Part shown: positions 21,702 to 59,024 of the stretch, piece after piece
Numbering within the stretch: the first letter of the stretch is position 1
Layout of the letters: every line of letters begins with the position of its first letter
Assembly: GCA_029255605.1 (NCBI GenBank)
Contig: JANLJF010000019.1
Coordinates: 39,413 to 103,412 of the forward strand
Length of the DNA: 64,000 nucleotides
Reading direction: 5' to 3'
Source: Azovibrio restrictus
Lineage (GTDB): Bacteria > Bacteroidota > Bacteroidia > Chitinophagales > Chitinophagaceae
Notes under the pieces: generated by a model
Told to the model about the DNA's origin: nothing
The model's input: only the letters and a program-made list of their open reading frames with translations
Database searches by the model: none
Position numbers and translations under genes: made by a program

Positions 21702-21714
21702 GACGCACCACACA

Positions 21715-21750
21715 TTTAGGTTTAGTATTTAGAAATTAGGATTTCGAAAT
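21715..21750. repeat. Short AT-rich intergenic repeat, copy 1
   Basis: The etfB-etfA gap contains GTATTTAGAAAT followed by TAGGATTT. The same words recur, inverted, in the gap after pfkA (47504-47556) and partly near 26590. It looks like a dispersed short intergenic repeat family. Confidence 0.35.
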
Positions 21751-21765
21751 TTTCAAAAACATTTT

Positions 21766-56080: not shown

Positions 56081-56127
56081 GGGGTATTTATATGATTACT
56101 AAATTAAATAAATCATATAAATACCCC
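56081..56127 (-). promoter_or_regulatory. Long hairpin between the thiolase stop and the Bor-like start
   Basis: GGGGTATTTATATGATT / AATCATATAAATACCCC form perfect 17-bp arms with a 13-nt loop. It starts 28 bp past the thiolase stop and ends 5 bp before the Bor-like ATG. It may terminate the thiolase transcript, hide the ribosome site, or act as an operator. Confidence 0.6.
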
Positions 56128-56155: not shown

Positions 56156-57358
56156 TTAAGATACGCTTTCGTAAATGATAGCGGCACCCTGGCCCACACC
56201 TATGCACATAGTAGCCAGTCCGTATTTGCCACCACGGCGTTTCAGTTCGTGTAGCAGGGTAGCAGAGATACGTGCACCGCTACAGCCCAATGGGTGGCCT
56301 ATAGCTATGGCACCACCATTCACATTTACCTTCTCTTCATCCAGCCCCAGTTCCTGCATGCATGGTATGCCTTGTGCGGCAAATGCCTCGTTCAGTTCTA
56401 CCAGGTCCAGATCTTTCGCGTCGATGCCTGCACGCTTCAATGCCTTTTGTGTGGCAGGTATAGGGCCTATGCCCATTACGGCAGGGTCTACACCTGCTGT
56501 GGCCATGCTCTTGATTTTTGCTATTGGTTTCAGGTTGTATTTCTTCACCGCATCTTCACTGGCCAGTAACAGCGCTGCAGCACCATCGTTAATGCCGCTA
56601 GAATTACCTGCTGTTACCGTACCATCTTTTTTGAAGGCAGGTTTTAGTGCAGCCATTTTTTCAAGTGTGGTTTCGCGGGGATGTTCATCGGTATCGAATA
56701 CCACAGTTTTACCTTTACCAAGGTCTATAGTAAGCGGTACTATCTCGTCATTGAACTTTCCTGCTGCTTTCGCCGCAAAATAACGCTGCTGGCTACGCAA
56801 GCCGAATGCATCCTGTGCCTCGCGGCTTACGTTATAACGCTCGGCTACGTTCTCTGCCGTTTCACCCATGGTATATGGGTAGTAAGTGTCTTTATTGAAC
56901 TTCTTATTGATGAAGCGCCAGCCCATAGTAGTATCATACATCTCCGGCGCACGGCCAAATGCGCTTTCAGATTTCGCCATAACGAATGGCGCACGCGTCA
57001 TGCTCTCTACACCACCGGCTATATACAGCTCTCCATCGCCACACATAATAGCGCGTGATGCATCTATGATAGCCTGCAAGCCCGATGCGCATAAACGGTT
57101 CACGGTATTACCTCCTACCGTAGCGGGTAAGCCGGCCAACAAAGCAGCCATACGTGCTACATTACGGTTGTCTTCACCGGCCTGGTTGGCAGCACCGGCT
57201 ATTACATCTTCTATCTCGTTTACATCTATAGACGGGTTGCGTTCTACCAGCGATTTGATAACATGTGCCAACATATCATCGGGGCGAACGGTGCTGAGTG
57301 TACCACCATATTTACCGATAGGGGTGCGTACTGCGTCTATTACATATACTGTCTTCAT
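56156..57358 (-). CDS. Acetyl-CoA acyltransferase, PcaF/PaaJ-like thiolase
   Basis: A 400-residue thiolase. Catalytic residues are in [12 protein letters not shown] (Cys90), [16 protein letters not shown] (His) and [12 protein letters not shown] (Cys). The 400-residue length and features such as [38 protein letters not shown] and [11 protein letters not shown] are especially like 3-oxoadipyl-CoA thiolases (PcaF/PaaJ), although a general 3-ketoacyl-CoA role is possible. No other aromatic-degradation genes are nearby. The start codon is only 8 bp from the inverted-repeat element upstream. Confidence 0.88.
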
Positions 57359-57361
57359 AAC

Positions 57362-57400
57362 TTAATTAATTAGCTGATTAGCTGATTGGCTAATTAGCAG
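57362..57400. repeat. Left repeat of the four-helix-bundle element
   Basis: TAATTAGCTGATTAGCT (57367-57383) is an exact inverted copy of 57775-57791. The full arm contains three near-8-bp units (TTAGCTGA, TTAGCTGA, TTGGCTAA) and a GCTAATTAGC palindrome that runs over the last codons of the enclosed gene. Confidence 0.75.
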
Positions 57401-57764
57401 GTTGCTTATTATTATTCTTTGATGTTGAAATAATCTTGTTTAAAATTTTGCAAGCAGATTGTGCTTGTATCAATAGATTTTCGGCTGATGGTAAAGATGG
57501 TGAAGCATTGCATACTTCAAAATAAAATTCTAATTCATCTGCTTCTTTTGCAGCAATTTTCATTTTATGGATGAAGTCGTTTCTGCTTTCCGCATTTTGC
57601 GCTTCCCTGATATTTGCACCAATAGAAAGAGCAGCACGCATTATCTGGTTGGATAATGACCATTTTTTTAAGTAATCCAAACGAATGCAGAATTCAATAG
57701 TATCCACAGCCAGATCGAAAGATAGCTTAACTGCCGGGTTATTGTTTTTATGTGCTGTTTGCAT
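57390..57764 (-). CDS. Four-helix-bundle protein (23S rRNA intervening-sequence family)
   Basis: A 124-residue helical protein. Motifs KLSFDLAVDTIEFC near the start, LSNQIMRAALSIGANIREAQN in the middle, and DFIHKMKIAAKEADELEFYFEV match the four-helix-bundle family first found as ORFs inside 23S rRNA intervening sequences and related to Avd proteins of diversity-generating retroelements. The tail is Asn/Lys-rich. No reverse transcriptase is nearby. The gene is bracketed by inverted repeats and sits between two unrelated co-oriented genes. AT-rich compared with both neighbours. Confidence 0.88.
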   Translation of the reverse strand: MQTAHKNNNPAVKLSFDLAVDTIEFCIRLDYLKKWSLSNQIMRAALSIGANIREAQNAESRNDFIHKMKIAAKEADELEFYFEVCNASPSLPSAENLLIQAQSACKILNKIISTSKNNNKQPAN

Positions 57765-57769
57765 ATCTA

Positions 57770-57806
57770 TTTTTAGCTAATCAGCTAATTATCACATTAG
57801 CTAATA
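57770..57806. repeat. Right repeat of the four-helix-bundle element
   Basis: AGCTAATCAGCTAATTA (57775-57791) is the exact reverse complement of the left arm. A further ATTAGCTAAT follows and overlaps the stop codon of the PLP-enzyme gene (57801-57803). Confidence 0.75.
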
Positions 57807-59024
57807 TAATGCTTGCTGCAGGTCATCAATAATATCTTCGATTGTTTCGATGCCCACGCTCATGCGTACCAGGCCATCTGTTATGCCAAAGCGTATGCGG
57901 TCTTCAGGGCGCACACCTACATGGGTAGTAGATGCCGGGTGTGATATCAATGTATCGCAAGTGCCCAGCGATACAGCGCTAACGCATGTTTTTAGTTTAT
58001 TGATAAAAGATACACCGGCATCGAAGCCGCCTTTCAGCTCGAAGCTGAGTACAGCACCTGCATGCTTCATTTGCTTTTGGGCAATAGCATGGTCGGAGTG
58101 GGAGGCAAGGCCCGGATAGTGCACTTTTGACACTGCAGGATGTGTTTCCAGGAATGCAGCTACTTTTTCTGCATTGCTGCAATGCTGCTGCATGCGCAGG
58201 CTGAATGTTTTCAAGCCATTGTTCAGCAGGAAAGCATCGAAAGCATTGCTATTGCCCCCCAGCAGGCGGTGTGTTTTAGTCACTACGCCGTTCATCAGCT
58301 CTATATCTTTGCCTATCAGTATGCCGCCTACAGCCGTACCATGCCCGTTCAGGAACTTGGTAGTAGAATGCATTACAAAGTCTACACCATACTTAAATGG
58401 CTGCTGCAGGTAAGGGGTAGCAAAAGTGTTATCTGCTGTTACTATAAGGTTATACTGTTTGCCCAACGCCGCCAGTGCTTCCATATCTACACACTGCAAT
58501 GTGGGATTGGCAGGTGTTTCTATGTGCATCAGTTTTATGTCGCTATCGCTTTTTATGATTTCCTCTACCGCTGCGACATCATGAAAATCGGCAATGATAG
58601 CTGTAATGCCCAGGTGTGGTAATATTTTATCCAGCATTTCCTGCGTGCCACCGTACAGCGATTCGTGGGTTATCATTTTATCGCCTGCCTTCAGGTTGCT
58701 CATCAGCATGGTGGTTAGCGCTGCCATGCCCGATGCATGCAGTATCGCTTTCAGCTCCATCTGTCCGCCCGATGCATCTTTCAATCCATATGCTTCCAGC
58801 AAGGCTATCTTTTCTTCTACCTCGTTGGTGTTTGGATTACCAAACCGGCCATAGATGTATCCTTCTTCCTCTTTTTTAAAAACCGCAATACCTTGTTCTG
58901 CACTATCGAAGGTGAAGGTGCTGGTGGCGTATATGGGGGTGAGATGCGCCCTCTTATTTTCAGGACTGTGCCCACCGTGTATACAGATGGTCTCAAAGCC
59001 ATGAGAATTATTTTGTTCAGACAT
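57801..59024 (-). CDS. Cys/Met-metabolism PLP enzyme (cystathionine/methionine lyase group)
   Basis: A 407-residue trans-sulfuration PLP enzyme. The PLP-binding Lys is in HSTTKFLNGHGTAVGG, and the phosphate-site Tyr in YGRFGNPN. SLGTCDTLISHPASTTH is family-typical. The active-site loop reads ESLYGGTQEM; methionine gamma-lyases usually have Cys in the YGC position, so a cystathionine gamma-synthase/lyase-type or O-acetylhomoserine role is more likely. Exact specificity is open. Promoter box TAACTTTG lies upstream; the four-helix-bundle element follows its stop directly. Confidence 0.88.
   Translation of the reverse strand: MSEQNNSHGFETICIHGGHSPENKRAHLTPIYATSTFTFDSAEQGIAVFKKEEEGYIYGRFGNPNTNEVEEKIALLEAYGLKDASGGQMELKAILHASGMAALTTMLMSNLKAGDKMITHESLYGGTQEMLDKILPHLGITAIIADFHDVAAVEEIIKSDSDIKLMHIETPANPTLQCVDMEALAALGKQYNLIVTADNTFATPYLQQPFKYGVDFVMHSTTKFLNGHGTAVGGILIGKDIELMNGVVTKTHRLLGGNSNAFDAFLLNNGLKTFSLRMQQHCSNAEKVAAFLETHPAVSKVHYPGLASHSDHAIAQKQMKHAGAVLSFELKGGFDAGVSFINKLKTCVSAVSLGTCDTLISHPASTTHVGVRPEDRIRFGITDGLVRMSVGIETIEDIIDDLQQALY

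Follow-up and report, generated by a model that had tools for sequence, protein, structure and literature searches.

A small gene for a four-helix bundle protein fills the gap between a PLP enzyme gene and a thiolase gene in the 64,000-nucleotide stretch of DNA analysed here (the window), and a perfect 17-bp inverted repeat encloses it. Is this an ordinary signal of transcription, a module of the host operon, or one copy of an element that also occurs elsewhere? The core of one arm, TAATTAGCTGATTAGCT, was located at 57367-57383 (plus strand) and its exact reverse complement at 57775-57791 (minus strand). Ungapped extension of this repeat gave 32-nt arms at 57362-57393 and 57773-57804, which are 78% complementary. 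The 3′ arm in the sense of the ORF spans 57362-57398 by repeat analysis, overlaps the stop codon of the ORF and is an 8-nt tandem array, with 3.8 copies of the unit ATTAGCTG at 57369-57398. Besides this pair, only one more perfect 17-bp inverted pair at most 600 bp apart was detected in the window (56081/56111), while the chance expectation is a mean of 0.03 such pairs per first-order Markov copy of the window.

The enclosed ORF (57390-57764, minus strand, 124 aa), which is the only ORF of the element, matched PF05635 with 66.4 bits against a cut-off of 33.8, as well as TIGR02436; we refer to members of this family as IVP genes. Upstream of it lies the gene for a trans-sulfuration-type PLP enzyme (57801-59024, minus strand; methionine gamma-lyase-like, below the cut-off) and downstream the thiolase gene (56156-57358, minus strand; 3-oxoadipyl-CoA thiolase-like, at the cut-off). 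The coordinates and the profile match agree with a preliminary description of the locus, which had reported the perfect repeat around a four-helix bundle gene in this gap, 8-bp tandem units in the arms, and a repeat end about 8 bp from the thiolase ATG, where the 17-bp core indeed begins. Its statement that the other end overlaps the stop codon of the PLP gene is right for the extended arm at 57773-57804 only, since the 17-bp core ends 9 bp short of that codon (57801-57803).

The AlphaFold (AF2) model of the IVP had a mean pLDDT of 92.7, and its nearest fold in Foldseek was 2rld, followed by 2gsc, with weak matches to 4dwl (Avd) and to the RNP of a diversity-generating retroelement (DGR). The gene showed dN/dS values of 0.12-0.13 against its relatives at the same junction. 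The minimum free energy structure of the element RNA closes on the 17-bp arms with the ORF in the loop (z -2.6). No promoter or terminator of its own was recognised in the element, and an Rfam search at the element gave no match. A role of the arms as ordinary terminators or attenuators of transcription would be in keeping with inverted repeats in an intergenic gap, yet the window arms form no short GC-rich hairpin, have no U tract or terminator-like site, are separated by about 390 nt with an ORF between them, and their sequence is not common to other elements; we give this explanation practically no weight. Both the promoter and the terminator readings were rejected.

We compared the PLP/thiolase junction with and without the element in 15 species of the genus, over which its presence proved patchy. 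The junction was occupied in G000, G004 and G009, while an ORF-deleted remnant with both arms was found in G010 (L058), at which a piece of the IVP 3′ end is kept and most of the ORF is gone. In G011, the nearest relative of G000, the junction was empty, and a tree of the thiolase shows occupied species interspersed with empty ones. The repeat units were of AGCTGATT-type in G000 and G009 and of GATGATTT-type in G004 and the G010 remnant, with both sides matched in each case. The IVP proteins at this junction share 63-70% identity and are mutually closest in the set, so the pattern may reflect either several losses or several arrivals at this one site. In one further species (L065 in G007), the PLP/thiolase gap holds a different insert (about 130 bp) that contains an inverted CGTCATTTCGA-type repeat, and its presence suggests that this gap tolerates insertions.

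Five PF05635 genes were identified in the genome to which the window belongs. One of them (L003), between sdhA-like and sdhB-like genes, was absent in 13 of the 14 genus mates, and the 14th gave no match; another (L002) showed a partial deletion in G011.

For a view of how general the inverted arms are, we examined 61 genomes (the own genome and relatives), in which loci are the best family matches and orthologous loci are not independent; at least one PF05635 gene over the curated cut-off was present in 46 of the 61. The 120 bp upstream of each gene were aligned to the reverse complement of the downstream flank, and an inverted-repeat score of at least 16 was taken as arms. This score was reached by 76% of 96 unique IVP genes from relatives, and by 71 of the 85 full-length ones, against 5.5% when flanks were swapped between loci, 7.9% for neighbour genes and 1.1% for random spans. 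Among 88 IVP genes from named GTDB species, 75% had arms (control 12%), although 80 of the named GTDB loci were found by a single-protein query and are biased to one junction (fad operon). With phylum labels beyond Bacteroidota taken from the titles of the records whose genomes served as centres, arms flanked 21/28 IVP genes in Pseudomonadota (75%, control 16%), 23/30 in Bacillota (77%, control 5%) and 26/30 in Nitrospirota (87%, control 4%), as well as 7/10 on cyanobacterial plasmids (70%, control 19%). There are exceptions, in that certain IVP genes are armless or have direct, non-inverted flanking arrays (L110 and L117). Phage records had almost no IVP relatives (2 of 50,697). Whether other genes of the family carry such flanks, on which the preliminary description depended, is thereby answered: about 75-87% of those sampled in four phyla do, compared with 1-19% of controls. 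An IVP gene within inverted 7- or 8-nt arrays is a widespread pattern, found in at least five bacterial phyla.

The arms showed a self-identity of 0.50 at a lag of 7 nt and of about 0.27 at most other lags. Of 135 elements, 97 had a best period of 7 and 28 one of 8, the window copy being of the 8-nt kind. Each element has its own unit, so the arm is not a shared sequence, and a search with the exact 17-mer, as suggested in the preliminary description, would miss other copies. Within an element, the two sides nevertheless go together: out of 174 candidate downstream arms, the element's own ranked best for 65 elements and among the five best for 120 (median rank 1). In pairs of elements with both neighbour genes in common, self-complementarity exceeded cross-complementarity in 414 of 458, and when downstream flanks were permuted within orthologous junctions none of 10,000 permutations reached the observed complementarity sum (z 9.1). 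No self-versus-cross difference was detected in the arms of protein pairs at least 80% identical, as expected if their arms have not yet diverged. Among the mismatches of sense-strand arms there was no excess of G-U over A-C (0.80, compared with 0.83 in cross-element controls); the data therefore show concerted change of the arms, not selection for RNA pairing as its cause. The protein itself is under purifying selection, as indicated by dN/dS values of 0.03-0.21 in most IVP pairs from the same junction. The conserved trait is the architecture, namely inverted arrays of 7-8 nt whose two sides co-evolve, and not the sequence of the arms.

Heptad arrays were also found away from IVP genes. Across 800 kb of G004, a complete genome, only period 7 was strongly enriched, with 25 arrays compared with 0-2 for other periods. 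After merging, 7 of 24 arrays flank IVP genes and 17 are without one; several of the IVP-free arrays are short-loop inverted pairs, with units that also occur in IVP arms (AAAAGTC and AGTAGAA types). In 700 kb of two IVP-less relatives no period-7 array was detected, so that the association of arrays with IVP genes was followed in three genomes, one IVP-bearing and two IVP-less. Two xanthomonad-like genomes have a single IVP gene each, in an accB-like/accC-like gap, with GGGATTC/GGGAATC arms that match the dispersed GGGAATC repeats, while a GGGAATC array is also present in G186, which lacks IVP genes. In G298, with two IVP genes, the reversed control pattern CTAAGGG ×4 was matched eight times and is another heptad array family.

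GGGAATC heptads of Xanthomonas, often in inverted pairs, were reported before and left unexplained (PMC4692102), and other heptameric repeats are known, such as GGGGATT in Nostoc (PMC4692102) and TAACTGA in Beggiatoaceae (PMC4679880). These repeats, together with the cyanobacterial rnpB STRR (Vioque 1997), resemble the IVP arms as intergenic 7-nt tandem arrays, the last three being compared by description; in the published accounts consulted, the repeats are not linked to IVP genes. Slippage was proposed as the origin of heptameric repeats (PMC4692102). If polymerase slippage and template switching alone made 7-nt microsatellites, which IVP genes would adjoin by chance, differences in array copy number between relatives and the lacking G-U signal would both be understandable. 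Slippage does not lead one to expect that period 7 alone is enriched in the 800-kb sample, or that a single gene family is enclosed by inverted arms in several phyla while neighbour genes are mostly armless, and we regard this origin as very improbable.

A more serious alternative is a system at the DNA level, similar to REPINs with their RAYTs, in which heptad arrays would be terminal inverted repeats or DNA protein-binding sites, arms-only arrays would be non-autonomous copies, and RNA pairing would be a mere by-product, allowing the element to survive when inserted in rRNA or RNase P RNA. As with REP/REPIN elements and RAYT, a single gene is flanked by inverted repeats that are also found alone intergenically, and dispersal of the repeat alone in the same genome was observed both in G004 and in the xanthomonad-like GGGAATC genomes, with the same units as in the IVP arms there (AAAAGTC and AGTAGAA; GGGAATC). 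The missing G-U bias and the two IVP-less genomes without period-7 arrays also speak for it. On the other hand, the IVP is not a tyrosine transposase and is unlike any known nuclease or transposase, the repeat consists of a short tandem array, and its unit is element-specific, differing among elements of one genome, unlike in REP families. A strong preference for one orientation within operons, described below, would not be expected of DNA-level insertion without later selection either, and we consider such a system unlikely, if worth keeping in mind. Compared with insertion sequences and classical transposons, the elements have no transposase, and their inverted repeats are present with a locus-specific unit instead of one common to all copies. 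We saw no direct transposition event or target-site duplication and identified no mobility gene.

With neighbour genes called by a simple ORF rule, 184 elements had both neighbours within 250 bp, and 165 of them lay in sense between co-directional genes while 5 were antisense. Ordinary genes in comparable positions were also mostly co-directional (29 vs 6), so the sense bias shows operon life and is not proof of insertion at the RNA level. The host operons are varied (cas, conjugation, sdh and acc, besides 23S rRNA and RNase P RNA), and the copies on cyanobacterial plasmids are in CRISPR-Cas and conjugation operons. Three of these plasmid IVP genes (L116, L115 and L110) were observed within CRISPR-Cas operons, as in cas10-cmr3 and cas6-cas4. 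Across Bacteroidota, related elements were found at two junctions in particular, fadB-fadA-like and thiolase-acyl-CoA dehydrogenase, a distribution compatible with vertical inheritance and loss.

Strong purifying selection on the IVP, reliance on operon transcription and the conserved placement in fad-type operons across Bacteroidota would suit a host-adopted RNA-processing or regulatory module, in which the arms and the IVP would work in cis, separating the expression of the flanking genes or tuning it, and which is inherited vertically, often lost and not mobile. Such a module is difficult to reconcile with patchy presence next to empty sisters and with the absence of L003 from the genus mates checked; nor does a single host function agree with so many kinds of host operon and with the fast turnover of units. 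We think it improbable.

The closest known relatives are the intervening sequences (IVSs) of 23S rRNA in Leptospira and Coxiella, which share the S23p/IVP protein family, a stem of inverted ends and a sense orientation with the host RNA. In the Coxiella IVS, the 5′ arm has tandem heptameric repeats (GACAGAT) in a strain-variable number, and RNase III cuts in the stem (PMC4990558). Covariance searches placed four of the sampled IVP genes (L336, L341, L345 and L349) inside 23S rRNA, in a region read as helix 45, and two more (L343 and L346) inside helix P12 of RNase P RNA. Both RNase P RNA genes (1229-2003 in L343 and 1229-2003 in L346) are of the Bacillota group and carry an intact IVP gene that interrupts P12. 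In L343, the element takes the place of the P12 tip, and its GGAAGTT-type arms prolong P12. All the 23S and RNase P RNA copies have heptad arms of the same kind as the operon copies. According to its title, a 1997 paper (Vioque, cited in PMC2858038) describes tandem repeats within the RNase P RNA gene of heterocyst-forming cyanobacteria. Our literature search, with most subscription journals outside it, found no earlier report of such an intervening sequence in RNase P RNA and no paper on the IVP architecture outside rRNA; in the literature found, the heptad-array nature and the co-evolution of the arms are not described as a general property.

In contrast to the 23S IVSs, the window copy has protein genes of an operon on both sides, as do most of the others. 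The window copy is not in 23S rRNA, although it has the stem of complementary ends and the PF05635 protein. The preliminary description had proposed a free-standing, possibly mobile IVS-like element or a processed RNA island between two metabolic genes. Its core, a free-standing relative of the 23S rRNA IVSs within an operon, has gained support from patchy presence, the arm-arm stem fold and the same architecture in other genes of the family, which include true insertions in 23S and RNase P RNA. The Avd protein of DGRs is a related four-helix bundle that forms pentamers. A DGR differs from the locus studied here, where no reverse transcriptase or template/variable repeat was found near the window IVP, whose neighbours are the PLP enzyme and the thiolase.

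On balance, we consider it probable that the window feature belongs to a general class of elements of about 0.45-0.5 kb, of which the 23S IVSs would be special cases; what we infer is that these elements are mobile, that their RNA is processed and what their protein does. Such an element has an IVP gene between inverted 7- or 8-nt arrays, in a gap of co-directional genes and in sense with the operon, along with which it would be transcribed. The arms can then pair in the transcript, making the IVP ORF the loop of a hairpin, while at helix 45 of 23S rRNA and P12 of RNase P RNA the elements replace the natural tip of a helix and extend it. By analogy with the 23S IVSs, the stem may be a substrate of RNase III, with a small IVP mRNA released and without religation. 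The IVP protein probably recognises the repeated arms and aids spread or persistence, if it resembles the Avd pentamer in handling nucleic acids. Copies that lose the ORF persist as arms-only heptad arrays. The elements are probably mobile; in that case few known autonomous mobile elements would be as small, and the manner in which IVP elements generate their ends would be new.

We put forward a broader proposal tentatively, judging its chances somewhat short of even: IVP elements may be a separate, cross-phylum class of minimal mobile elements, with one gene for a nucleic-acid-binding protein and self-made inverted heptad arrays, at RNA-compatible sites such as operon gaps and the helix tips of 23S and RNase P RNA. 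A copying process would generate the arrays and keep them complementary, and many unexplained heptameric repeats of bacteria would be its footprints. A general class of IVP elements offers a single explanation for many annotated "four helix bundle proteins", for the origin of 23S IVSs and for the 7-nt repeats of some bacterial genomes. Each of these points can be tested on the material compiled here, namely sister genomes with and without IVP genes, unoccupied sites, remnants, and the copies inside rRNA and RNase P RNA.

Two other repeats of the window were observed. The second perfect 17-bp inverted pair (56081-56127) is closely spaced, lies just past the 3′ end of the thiolase gene and may form a hairpin where the operon ends. 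At 21709-21752, in an intergenic gap preceding a gene with an etfA-like start, we identified an array that has no ORF and is made up of degenerate 7-nt units (TTTAGGT, TTAGTAT, TTAGAAA and TTAGGAT); its unit resembles the arms of another element of the same genome (L005).
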